Below are positions 17,783 through 22,358 of a stretch of DNA of 47,420 nt, piece by piece. Every line of letters begins with the position of its first letter. The stretch's first letter is position 1. The stretch covers positions 1 to 47,420 of the forward strand of contig JAGAPX010000028.1 of the NCBI GenBank assembly GCA_017623055.1, given 5' to 3'. The translations under genes and the position numbers were made by a program. The notes under the pieces were generated by a model that saw only the letters and a program-made list of their open reading frames with translations, had not been told where the DNA came from and did not search any database. Source of the DNA: Phascolarctobacterium sp. (GTDB lineage: Bacteria > Bacillota > Negativicutes > Acidaminococcales > Acidaminococcaceae).

Positions 17783-19144
17783 TTACTCGAACATCGCCCT
17801 CAGCGCCTGCTCAAGAGTTTTAACCTTTATAATCTGCACATTAGCATCTGTCTTTAACGGAATGTTACTATCCGGAACGATAAACTTGGTAAACCCAAGG
17901 TTAATGCCATCCATAATGCGACGCTCCGGTGCGCTTACACGACGCACTTCCCCTGTCAAACCAACTTCGCCAAAAGCAAGCACCCCTTTAGGCACAGGCT
18001 TATTGCGATAACTGGAAACAAGTGCCGTCGCCACAGCCAAATCTGCTGCAGGTTCCGTAACACGCATACCACCAACAATATTAATGTAGGCATCGTACAC
18101 GCCAAAGTCAAAACCCATACGACGTTCCAAAATGGCAAGAAGCATATTCACGCGGTTATAGTCAAAGCCAACCGCAGTTCTACGTGGCATACCGTAAGGA
18201 GTTTTCGCCACAAGAGCTTGAAACTCTACCATAATCGGACGGTTACCTTCCATGCACGCGCCAATGACACTACCTGCTGCTTCACCGTCACGGTCTTCAA
18301 GAAACAAGCCTGCCGGATTGGCAACCTCTTGCAAGCCACCAGCTTCCATGGAAAAAATTCCGCTTTCATTCGTACTGCCAAAGCGATTCTTCAAAGCACG
18401 CAGTACACGGAAGGAATAGGAACGGTCGCCCTCAAACTGAAGTACCACGTCAACCATATGCTCCAACAAACGAGGACCAGCAATATTGCCATCCTTGGTT
18501 ACGTGACCAATGAGCAGTACTGCAATGCCCGAAGTTTTAGCAAATTGCAAAAGCTTTGCCGTACACTCCCGCACTTGACCCACGCTACCAGCCGCAGTTT
18601 GCAGCTCTGGATTATACATGGTCTGAATGGAGTCGATGATTAAAAGCTTGGGCGCAACATTCTGCGCCTGCACTAAAATTGCATCTAAATCCGTAGCAGT
18701 CATAATGAGCAGATTATCATTAGCACCACCCAAACGGGTAGCACGCATGGCAGTTTGCTCCTCAGATTCCTCACCGCTAACGTACAAGGTCTTAATACCT
18801 TGCTGCCCAAAGCGCAAGCCTGCGTCCAGCAAGATTGTAGATTTGCCAATGCCGGGAGTTCCACCCAAAAGCACCAAGCTTCCGGGCACAACGCCACCAC
18901 CAAGCACCCTATCAAATTCACGGATGCCTGTTGCCAAACGCTCCACTTTAGTTTGGGCAACGCTGGCAATGGTCTTAGGTTTTATTTTTTCAGCGTTGGT
19001 TGGCAAAAAGCTTTTGCTCCTTGCCGTAACCTCCGCTTCTTCACTAAAGGAATCCCAAGCGCCACACTCCGGGCAACGTCCTAACCATTTACTGGTAGTG
19101 TAGCCACAGCTTTGGCACACAAAATGATACTTAGTCTTCGCCAT
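17783..19144 (-). CDS. radA: DNA repair protein RadA (Sms)
   Basis: RadA is a RecA-like branch-migration ATPase in recombinational repair. The 453-residue product has an N-terminal zinc finger (Cys10, Cys13, Cys24, Cys27), Walker A GGTPGIGKS (94-102), Walker B LLIIDS, the RadA-specific ALKNRFGSTNE motif near 250 and a C-terminal Lon-like domain (GLTGEVRRVSAPERR). I start at ATG 19144, six bases after GGGAG; upstream ATGs lack a proper site. The start overlaps the clpC end by 14 bases, implying translational coupling. ctsR-clpC-radA is the usual Firmicute order. Confidence 0.95.
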   Translation of the reverse strand: MAKTKYHFVCQSCGYTTSKWLGRCPECGAWDSFSEEAEVTARSKSFLPTNAEKIKPKTIASVAQTKVERLATGIREFDRVLGGGVVPGSLVLLGGTPGIGKSTILLDAGLRFGQQGIKTLYVSGEESEEQTAMRATRLGGANDNLLIMTATDLDAILVQAQNVAPKLLIIDSIQTMYNPELQTAAGSVGQVRECTAKLLQFAKTSGIAVLLIGHVTKDGNIAGPRLLEHMVDVVLQFEGDRSYSFRVLRALKNRFGSTNESGIFSMEAGGLQEVANPAGLFLEDRDGEAAGSVIGACMEGNRPIMVEFQALVAKTPYGMPRRTAVGFDYNRVNMLLAILERRMGFDFGVYDAYINIVGGMRVTEPAADLAVATALVSSYRNKPVPKGVLAFGEVGLTGEVRRVSAPERRIMDGINLGFTKFIVPDSNIPLKTDANVQIIKVKTLEQALRAMFE

Positions 19145-21851
19145 AAGCATCTCCCTTTGCTGCGCACACAGGCTCTGCAAAATTCACAGGCATTTCTAAA
19201 ATGAAACGTTCTGCTTCCACAGCTTTATGGAATTGCAGTTCCTTATCCTTGCCCAGCTCTGCGATAATTTTATCGCCCTTGGTAAACTTACCTGCCAAGA
19301 ATAAATCGCTGACAGGGTCTTCTATCAATTTGCGCAATGCCCTACGCAAAGGTCTTGCGCCGTACTTACTGTCACTGCCTTCTTTTAAGAGTAACTCTTT
19401 CGCAGAAGGTACCAGTTCAATTTCCAAACCATTGGCTTTCATTCTATTGTTCAGCTCAGCCAGCATATTATCTGCAATTTGCTCCAACTCTTTTGCACCC
19501 AAGGGGTCGAAAACCAAGATTTCGTCCACGCGGTTTAAAAATTCTGGACGGAACACATGCTTAATTTCAGAAAGCACTTGCTCCTTGCGATTTTTCAACT
19601 CGCTGGCGCTGTCAGAAGCAAAGCCCAAAGGCTTAGACATACTTAATTTTTGCGCACCTGCGTTACTGGTCATAATAATTACTGCGTTACGGAAGTCCAC
19701 GGTTCTGCCTTGACCATCAGTCAGGCGACCATCTTCCATAATTTGCAGCAGTACGTTGAACACATCAGGATGCGCCTTTTCGATTTCGTCAAGCAACACC
19801 ACGCTGTAAGGCTTACGGCGCACTGCGTCAGTCAGTTGACCGCCTTCTTCGTAGCCAACGTAACCCGGAGGCGCACCCAAAAATCGTGCGGTAGTGTGCT
19901 TTTCCATATATTCGCTCATGTCGAAGCGGAGCATAGCTCTTTCGTCACCAAACAAATCCTCTGCCAACGCTTTGGCAAGTTCTGTTTTGCCCACACCGGT
20001 AGGGCCAAGGAAGAGGAAGCTTCCCACAGGTCTGTTTTTATCTTTAAAGCCTGCACGAGCACGACGAATTGCTTTGCTCACTGCAACAACAGCTTCATTC
20101 TGACCGATGATACGTTGGTGAAGCTTAGCTTCCAATTTCAAGAGACGATTGCTTTCGCCTTCGGTTAATTTCTGTACGGGGATACCAGTCCAAGACGCTA
20201 CAACTTCTGCTACGTCTTCTTCGCTAACAGAAAAATCCTGCGCCGCATCTACGAGAGCAGCAGCCAATTTTTCCTGCAACGCATTTTCCTTATCGCGAAG
20301 CTCTGCTGCCAATTCGTACTTTTGCTCTTCAACAGCCTCTTCTTTTTCCAGCTGTACATATTCCAGTTCCTCCTGCAATTTACGTGCAGGCAGGGAAAGC
20401 TTATACAATTTAATACGCACACGGGCACAAGCCTCGTCCATTAGGTCAATCGCCTTGTCAGGCAAATTTCTATCAGTAATATATCTATCGGAAAGCCCTA
20501 CTGCCGCTTTGATGGCAGCTTCTTCAATGCGCAAGCCGTGGAATTTTTCGTAACGTTTACGCAAACCAAGAAGCATTTTTTCGCTAGCTTCCGCAGTAGG
20601 AGTGTTTACCAGTACAGGCTGGAAGCGACGTTCCAAAGCTGCGTCCTTTTCTACGTGCTTACGATATTCAGAAATAGTAGTTGCCCCGATAATTTGAAGT
20701 TCACCGCGAGCAAGGGCAGGCTTCACGATATTGGCAGCGTCAATACTGCCTTCTGCACTGCCTGCACCAATGATGGTGTGCAGTTCGTCGATGAAGAGGA
20801 TAATGCGTTGGTCTTTACGGATAAGCTCCAAAATTTCTTTCAGACGGTCCTCAAATTCGCCACGGTACTTAGCGCCTGCAACCAACATACCCAATTCCAA
20901 GGAAAAGATAATTTTATTTTCCAAGAACTCAGGCACATCATTCTTAATAATCTTTTGGGCAAGTGCTTCTGCAATGGCGGTTTTGCCAACGCCAGCCTCA
21001 CCGATGATGACCGGGTTATTCTTGGTACGACGGCACAAAATTTGAATCAAGCGTTCAACTTCGTCCTCACGTCCAATGACAGGGTCACTTTTACCAAGGC
21101 GCGCCGCCTCGTTCAGATTGCGACCAAAGCCACTCAAAACTTCCAGCACATCTTTAGTTTTTTCGCCCTCTTTGGCACGAGGTCCTTTGCCGGAAATTGC
21201 TTTATGGTGTTCATCTAATTGGCGAATAACCTCCGCCACATTTTCGTAGGTTACACCAAATTTATTCAATACCTTGCAAGCAATGCCTTCGCCTGCCGCA
21301 AGAAGTCCTAACAAAATTTGTTGGCTACCAACGAAGCCTTGACCAATCTCCTTGGCAGCTTCGCCAGCTTTTTCTAAAACCTTGGTTGCCATAGGGGTAT
21401 AAGAGACAAAAACATTGCCTTCTTTCTTTTTACCATTGTCCATCCAGCCTTCCAACTCTTGCAGTAAATCGGAAGCCTTCAAATTAAAGCCTTCAATAAT
21501 TTTCTTGGCAAGGTTTTTCTCCATGGTAAGCAAGCTCCATAAAAGATGCTCCGTCCCCATGTGCTCACAACCGCTATCCACTGCTTTGGCAATGGCGTCG
21601 CTTACAATCTTGGAAGCACGCAGGGAAAAACCGTCCTTGGAAGCTTCAAGCTTTTGAGTTCCCTTTAACATATCTTCAAAAAAGCTCTTTGCCAATTCGG
21701 GAGTTAAAGGCAGCTCACCACCGGCAAAGGGCATAAAATCCTTTGCGCAGTCTTCGCACAACCATTGGTCTACTTTATTTTCACCCATAAGGGCAACAAC
21801 GTGCACTCTGGCAGGTTTCTTGCCACATTTTTCGCACATAATCTCGCTCAT
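19131..21851 (-). CDS. clpC: ClpC-type AAA+ unfoldase with fused McsA-like zinc finger
   Basis: The 906-residue protein unfolds substrates for ClpP. Residues 1-36 are a four-cysteine finger (Cys6-x-x-Cys9, Cys32-x-x-Cys35) resembling the N-terminus of McsA, which is normally a separate gene. Next come a Clp N-domain (about 72-215), AAA-1 with GEAGVGKT (284-291) and FIDE (353-356), a UVR-like middle domain (about 488-525) and AAA-2 with GPTGVGKT (616-623). The ClpB-type long middle coil is absent. ATG 21851 lies 4 bases after the ctsR stop. No mcsA or mcsB gene lies between ctsR and radA, unlike in Bacillus. Confidence 0.93.
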
Positions 21852-21855
21852 ATTT

Positions 21856-22272
21856 TCACCCCTGGCTACTGCCAGTCATCTGCCCAATTGCTTGCTGCAG
21901 GATGACCTTCTTCTGTTCCTCGTCTGTGTCGATAATATTCAAAATAAATTGTAAAAGTTTTGCTTCACGAGCAGTAATCATTCTTTTTTGCGCCAAATGT
22001 TGTACCAGTTCCATAGCGGTAGGTTCTTTCTCAGGCACAACTTCTTTGGGAACAACGCGCACAATTCGCACGAAGCCACCACTGCCACGTCTAGATTCTA
22101 CAATGAAGCCACGCTCGGGAGTGAAGCGGGTGCTTAAAACATAACTAATCTGAGACGGAGCGCAGGAAAGTTTTTCTGCCAGGTCACTTCTTTTAACTAG
22201 CAAAGCGTCGTCACGATCGCGCATAAATTCTTGAATGATAAAGTTTTCAATAGCGTCTGCTAAATTTCTCAT
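21856..22272 (-). CDS. ctsR: Transcriptional repressor CtsR
   Basis: CtsR represses class III heat-shock genes (clp genes) and loses DNA binding at high temperature. The 138-residue product has an N-terminal winged helix (LAEKLSCAPSQISYVLSTRF) and the glycine-rich wing ESRRGSGGFVRIVR, whose arginine-glycine loop is the heat sensor in other species. The C-terminal dimer domain contains RMITAREAKLLQFIL. ATG 22272 follows AAGGTGG; an upstream GTG overlaps that site. As the first gene of its operon it probably represses its own promoter. Confidence 0.93.
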   Translation of the reverse strand: MRNLADAIENFIIQEFMRDRDDALLVKRSDLAEKLSCAPSQISYVLSTRFTPERGFIVESRRGSGGFVRIVRVVPKEVVPEKEPTAMELVQHLAQKRMITAREAKLLQFILNIIDTDEEQKKVILQQAIGQMTGSSQG

Positions 22273-22329: not shown

Positions 22330-22358
22330 ATTATATTTGACTTTTCGACTTTCCGCAA
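22330..22358 (-). promoter_or_regulatory. Promoter of the ctsR operon with CtsR-like repeats
   Basis: TTGCGG (22353-22358), 17-base spacer, TATAAT (22330-22335). In the spacer on the minus strand are two heptads, AGTCGAA (22344-22350) and AGTCAAA (22336-22342), like the CtsR heptad GGTCAAA. Their period is 8 bases rather than the usual 10. Confidence 0.7.

Follow-up and report, generated by a model that had tools for sequence, protein, structure and literature searches.

An McsA-derived finger segment fused to ClpC in Acidaminococcaceae, a family without detectable McsB

The fused clpC gene and its neighbours

In a contig of Phascolarctobacterium sp. (JAGAPX010000028.1 of assembly GCA_017623055.1; all 47,420 nucleotides are referred to as the window), the gene for the unfoldase ClpC lies between ctsR and radA and encodes a four-cysteine finger at the very N-terminus of the protein. 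The finger (Cys6, Cys9, Cys32 and Cys35) was noticed in an earlier reading of the sequence, hereafter the original prediction, and is present in the open reading frame. The coordinates given at that time, 19131-22272, span clpC together with ctsR, and the fused gene alone occupies 19131-21851 on the reverse strand, as do all features described here. It codes for 906 amino acids, and its ClpC body groups with the ClpC proteins of the class Negativicutes.

The domain order, according to Pfam, is finger, two Clp_N repeats, AAA1, UVR-type M-domain and AAA2. Residues 1-62 (21666..21851) form the segment that we attribute to the adaptor McsA, and consist of the first of the two McsA fingers (finger 1) and a helix at residues 51-62. 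The core of the finger, C6-X2-C9-X22-C32-X2-C35 (21747..21836), is predicted to bind zinc. The N-domain with both Clp_N repeats (residues 70-208; 21228..21644) is supported by Pfam, by a ClpC profile and by fold matches to the ClpC N-terminal domains 6ucr and 2y1r. The M-domain stretch (residues 489-530; 20262..20387) contains the Pfam UVR match at 495-527, with the motif YELAAELRD at residue 512. The Pfam-defined AAA2 (19518..20033) retains a ClpP-contact loop of the LGF/VGF type, LGF, at about residue 742 (~19620-19628), and a ClpP gene was found in the same genome; a second, partial ClpP-family match (71.6 bits) lies there in a 408-amino-acid frame at G000:C22:35682-36116. With the window ClpC as query, the other large Clp ATPase of this genome is a single ClpB-like protein of 856 amino acids.

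Directly upstream is ctsR (21856..22272; PF05848, E 6.8e-30), which codes for 138 amino acids and ends at 21856. Downstream, the open reading frame of radA (17783..19180), the next gene of the operon, overlaps the end of clpC, and the same order is found across the class. An Rfam search returned no element.

Identity, origin and distribution of the finger

The four cysteines are not a chance pattern, because both a general McsA model and a profile of the family match McsA. The NCBIfam McsA model aligned its residues 2-35 with the first 70 residues of the window ClpC (E 3.7e-5), and a profile of 15 family members matched the solved McsA structure 8wtb along 63 positions (E 1.1e-11). The same profile matched the solved ClpE 29hb in the finger only (E 0.003); with the family finger profile, McsA scored 47.6 bits versus 20.5 bits for ClpE, so that McsA is the nearest solved sequence and ClpE the next. 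The seam was located using hidden Markov models (HMMs) of the unfused proteins: the HMM built on 52 McsA N-termini from the class matches residues 1-62 with 46.6 bits, and that of unfused ClpC N-termini begins at residue 70. In the relative L046, an McsA match over residues 1-65 abuts, without a gap, a ClpC match from residue 66, where the native start of ClpC can still be recognised as MNRFTERA. Given that the McsA profile runs to about residue 62 or 65 and the ClpC profile takes over, the grafted piece comprises some 62-65 McsA residues, that is, finger 1 and the hydrophobic helix of the DFLKGMF type, joined to a whole ClpC. The second McsA finger, which contacts the arginine kinase McsB, was found neither in the window ClpC nor elsewhere in its genome. 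By these profile comparisons, the N-terminal segment is McsA finger 1 at the former site of mcsA; the proposal that the finger of the adaptor now sits on the unfoldase is upheld and narrowed to that finger.

In the structural model, the finger core was predicted with a predicted local distance difference test (pLDDT) of 82-88, and its best fold match in PDB was the N1 domain of ClpG (8p66; Foldseek probability 0.99, E 0.03). The linker that connects it to the N-domain has pLDDT of only 56-63, suggesting a mobile arm or flexible tether and giving no support to the packing of the finger on the Clp N-domain that the original prediction had considered.

We read about 80 ctsR regions of the class and searched 300 of its genomes, including 59 genomes of Acidaminococcaceae (f1), the family of gut bacteria to which Phascolarctobacterium belongs. 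The fused ClpC was found in 41 of the 59: 39 full-length matches, one split match (G240), and one protein, in G150, with a deletion in the finger. The remaining f1 genomes yielded no ClpC match; the f1 genera without a finger-ClpC match are g5, g12, g13, g14, g16, g17 and g18. Outside f1, about 50 operons of the class, including those of the sister families f2-f4 of the same order, have the arrangement ctsR-mcsA-mcsB-clpC where f1 has ctsR-[finger]clpC, and this order holds for all clpC-bearing ctsR regions read outside f1 except those of two f35 genomes (L107 and L111, g80). In these two, mcsB is gone and a shortened mcsA, coding for finger 1 only, precedes a plain clpC as a separate gene; they are the unfused counterpart of the same cut in McsA. 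A fusion extending across Negativicutes, as was initially considered, is rejected: among the class operons read, the fusion is confined to f1, and it is a derived trait of that one family in the class. In a contig scan with the fused protein, the matches listed were mostly ordinary ClpC of other phyla, and the f1 members among them were Phascolarctobacterium sp. and uncultured Selenomonadales.

A tree of the ATPase body bears on where the protein came from. A ClpE or ClpG/ClpK acquired horizontally and displacing clpC would explain the finger, given that this type of finger is common to ClpE and ClpG/ClpK and that the latter also have the plan of a finger followed by Clp_N. However, the f1 fusions form one clade (support 99) beside the f2 proteins of the same order (97), within the ClpC of the class (class ClpC and f1 together: 98) and at a distance from ClpE and ClpK, indicating that the ClpC body was inherited vertically. 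Furthermore, ClpE has no Clp_N, and the fused ClpC scored 704.5 and 736.2 bits against the NCBIfam ClpG/ClpK models, far below the cut-off of 1900 bits. We consider such a transfer extremely improbable and reject it on the tree.

The ancestor of f1 would have had the usual ctsR-mcsA-mcsB-clpC-radA operon. A loss of DNA that took the 3' portion of mcsA with finger 2 and the UVR tail, the whole of mcsB and the spacer ahead of clpC would have fused the first 65 or so residues of McsA in frame to the ClpC start. That the fused clpC originated by gene joining is shown by comparison of the sequences, and one single deletion is the simplest reading of how this came about.

Loss of McsB and a second fusion in the phylum

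The absence of mcsB from the ctsR operon, as originally noted, extends to the whole genome. McsB (PF00217) had no match in the draft genome carrying the window (98.3% complete) and none in any of the 59 f1 genomes; the same search found matches in 188 of the 300 class genomes. An assembly gap is an unlikely cause of an absence repeated across 59 genomes. Free McsA was likewise not found in this genome, where the McsA model matched solely the fused finger and a UVR stretch in a 613-amino-acid frame, with an NCBIfam score of 20.9 bits, below the 210-bit cut-off; accordingly, no intact mcsA/mcsB pair was found elsewhere in the genome. It should be noted that these absences rest on family searches of genomes, and that the PF00217 and PF05848 searches gave no match in the Bacillus subtilis control genome, which is known to carry both genes; the class results show that the searches work, this control notwithstanding.

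A search of 398 genomes for finger-ClpC in the phylum revealed, besides f1, the family f58 and two further cases. Among the 20 f58 genomes, 12 have a fused ClpC, all without McsB, four have plain ClpC with free McsA and McsB, and the last four, which are incomplete assemblies, gave no ClpC match. This split (12:0 versus 0:4 for fusion against McsB) has p = 0.0005. In the fused f58 operon, too, the order is ctsR-[finger]clpC, and several members still show the native start of ClpC behind the finger and helix. In the ATPase-body tree, the fusions of f58 make up a separate clade (98), next to the unfused proteins of the same family, far from f1 and, like the f1 clade, apart from ClpE; judged by this topology, the f58 fusion arose independently of that in f1. 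Taking together all operons read, 28 fused operons lack McsB and 53 of the 55 unfused ones have it; phylogenetically, the counts are not independent, and two actual events underlie them. Thus, the fusion is real at the level of the family, has an independent repeat and is coupled to the loss of the arginine kinase, which makes it a new variant of ClpC.

The two further cases represent a third context, independent of ctsR, in which the finger-ClpC is linked to hsp20. In G515 (L241, f139), the gene lies behind an hsp20-like gene and McsB is missing; in G609 (L242), it lies behind hsp20-like genes, and an intact mcsB operon is present elsewhere in the genome. When phages were searched with the finger, the matches were only weak.

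A further reading takes the finger for a neutral relic of the gene-joining deletion. Such a deletion would by accident leave a remnant of this kind, and G150 has indeed lost half of the finger. Conversely, the N-terminal regions of the family diverge to about 30% identity with the four cysteines kept, and among the 15 aligned members these cysteines, A14, W30 and L31 are invariant, whereas the linker behind the finger varies freely, with no invariant column. The residues of the hydrophobic strand and the post-finger helix are retained in the family as well. The residue two before the third cysteine is Trp in 16 of 17 f1 fusions and Tyr or Phe in all 11 f58 fusions, whereas 44 of 52 free McsA proteins of the class have His or Asn; in f58 this change may precede the fusion, because one unfused f58 McsA also has Phe there. 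Considering also that the same graft was made twice and is kept in nearly all members, we regard a neutral relic as improbable.

Several ctsR regions have undergone other losses. In four f1 operons (L045 in G073, L052 in G162, L053 in G189 and L054 in G195), ctsR directly adjoins radA, so that CtsR is kept without clpC in the operon. The genes mcsA, mcsB and clpC are all missing from the ctsR-radA operon repeatedly in f15, f28 and f10 (L072, L078-L081, L095 and L112-L114), and in L059 (G120, f7) an mcsA-like gene with one finger by pattern and mcsB, without clpC, lie between ctsR and radA.

Possible role of the finger and control of CtsR

The fused protein shares the Clp_N double repeat, AAA1, the UVR-type M-domain and AAA2 with the ClpC of ctsR-mcsA-mcsB-clpC operons, and the LGF loop, the place after ctsR and before radA, and the tree position with ordinary Bacillota ClpC. 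It differs from ordinary ClpC in carrying McsA residues 1 to about 62, in the absence of mcsA and mcsB, and in the second phosphoarginine pocket, which is altered in most members. With McsA it has in common finger 1, the DFLKGMF-type helix and the gene position after ctsR; unlike McsA, it has neither finger 2 nor a separate UVR tail and is not a free adaptor. Finger 2 is the contact to McsB and a reported redox switch (PMC7235348, PMC12467219). Since only finger 2 binds McsB, the segment moved onto ClpC is the McsB-independent half. We found no assigned role for McsA finger 1 in the open-access literature, and no paper on a finger on ClpC or on the ClpC of Acidaminococcaceae, which is not proof of novelty.

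The closest functional parallels are ClpE and ClpG. The N-terminal domains of McsA and ClpE and the N1 domain of ClpG are homologous zinc domains, and N1 targets ClpG to protein aggregates via a hydrophobic strand (PMC10641755). Together with ClpP, ClpE acts as an autonomous protease on CtsR and on proteins that are misfolded or aggregated; its finger binds zinc, aids casein binding and is clipped off on zinc loss, and the phenylalanine stretch after the finger is required for aggregates (PMC13125188). ClpE resembles the fused ClpC in having an N-terminal C-X2-C-X22-C-X2-C finger, a homologue of McsA finger 1 with a hydrophobic stretch behind it, and in serving the CtsR regulons of bacteria without McsA and McsB, but it has no Clp_N repeats, is monocistronic and belongs to another clade. 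ClpG/ClpK likewise place a zinc-finger N1, the best fold match of our finger, before a Clp_N-like N2, but the fourth ligand in ClpG is His and the lineage is different; no ClpP-type loop was found in the ClpK examined. By analogy, the fused ClpC probably works like ClpE or ClpG but belongs to neither.

The likeness to ClpE also permits a different role, in which the finger is chiefly a thiol or redox sensor of the CtsR regulon: oxidation would eject zinc, the finger would unfold, and ClpC would drop its support of CtsR or clip itself, derepressing the regulon, a mechanism proposed for ClpE where McsA and McsB are missing. The four-cysteine site is of the ClpE type, and ClpE autoprocessing removes the first 35 residues on zinc loss, the truncated form being present in vivo under oxidative stress (PMC13125188); moreover, ClpE has been proposed as a substitute for the McsA redox switch (PMC5506225, PMC3472708). 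However, the McsA finger with redox activity, finger 2, is not kept (PMC7235348). The retained hydrophobic helix behind the finger fits targeting better than sensing, and we consider sensing as the chief role unlikely, if still worth attention. Members of f1 are anaerobes; for a redox role, this counts neither way.

We favour targeting in cis, with the balance of evidence moderately on the side of the whole scheme of a deletion-born fusion, an McsA targeting module in cis and a McsB-independent ClpC. The grafted finger 1 and helix most likely fold around zinc and serve in cis as a flexible arm that targets misfolded or aggregated proteins, like the fingers of ClpE and ClpG, and would replace the McsA/McsB route. 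ClpC-ClpP would then be independent of the McsA/McsB adaptor and of arginine phosphorylation. With respect to the original proposal that quality control here works without the arginine kinase, the kinase is indeed absent, and it is the working of ClpC without it that we infer. As in ClpE, loss of zinc by oxidation might unfold the finger and add an input from thiol stress, although this element is weaker. That the same fusion occurred twice, with McsB lost, suggests a way for ClpC to find damaged proteins without arginine tagging. Furthermore, McsA was cut between its fingers twice and the McsB-binding half was discarded with McsB, which singles out finger 1 as the part serving ClpC directly. 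A broader proposition is more tentative, and we place it slightly short of an even chance: that the loss of McsB was compensated at least twice by grafting the same half of the activator, that ClpC has become autonomous and gated by zinc and aggregates, and that McsA finger 1 is a portable targeting module with an overlooked role. The fusion bears on how McsA, McsB and phosphoarginine share the steering of ClpC; it makes the function of finger 1 testable in one polypeptide and provides a natural ClpC without arginine kinase for comparison with ClpE and ClpG.

Resting ClpC is normally inactive, and adaptors or phosphoarginine release it via N-domain pockets around E32 and E106 (PMC12583610). 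E32 is invariant in f1, whereas E106 is kept in 5 of 17 f1 proteins versus 48 of 51 among the other class members; in the second Clp_N repeat of the window ClpC, GSQQ replaces GTEH and the equivalent of E106 is Q. The loss of E106 in most of f1 fits the loss of arginine tagging.

Several observations weigh against the targeting scheme. E106 is kept in all 11 f58 fusions, so its loss is a lineage-specific change; a degenerate phosphoarginine pocket as a general mark of the fusion holds for f1 and fails for f58. L107 and L111 lost McsB without any fusion, and G609, with both finger-ClpC and mcsB, indicates that the finger does not require loss of McsB. In G150 (L023), an in-frame deletion removed the first CxxC, for which a real loss and an assembly error are both possible. 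Judged by its E value, the Foldseek similarity between the modelled finger and ClpG N1 is weak. Finally, deletion of the finger core of ClpE lowered but did not abolish the degradation of aggregates and left CtsR unaffected; with so mild an effect, the weight of the finger could be small.

Regarding CtsR, its glycine-rich wing, ESRRGSGGFVRI, retains the arginine, as originally noted, and the accompanying puzzle of how CtsR is relieved without McsB is largely answered by the literature. The glycine-rich loop of CtsR is an intrinsic heat sensor, and DNA binding is lost on heating (PMC12634643, PMC5506225); lactic acid bacteria have CtsR without McsA and McsB, and use ClpE for its control (PMC3472708). 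These precedents would be applicable here: CtsR would let go of DNA through its own sensing of heat, and the fused ClpC would degrade the CtsR set free. The finger might alternatively dock CtsR, inheriting the aid that McsA gives to repression, so that ClpC would be both corepressor and protease of CtsR. McsA reportedly aids the dimerisation of CtsR and its binding to the operator (PMC12634643), and in f1 the fused gene stays beside ctsR; against this, ClpE degrades CtsR even without its N-terminal domain (PMC13125188), and in L241 and L242 finger-ClpC lies behind hsp20-like genes, away from ctsR. Docking of CtsR is thus a rather unlikely role, less so than a neutral relic but more so than redox sensing.

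The ctsR promoter reads TTGCGG-N17-TATAAT (22330..22358). Scanning the window for CtsR boxes revealed no canonical tandem box beyond chance expectation, nor was the half-site motif alone above chance. A CtsR half-site, AGTCAAA (22342-22336), stands directly before the -10 element, with a degenerate AGTCGAA in the spacer, and most members of the family likewise have a half-site immediately ahead of their -10.

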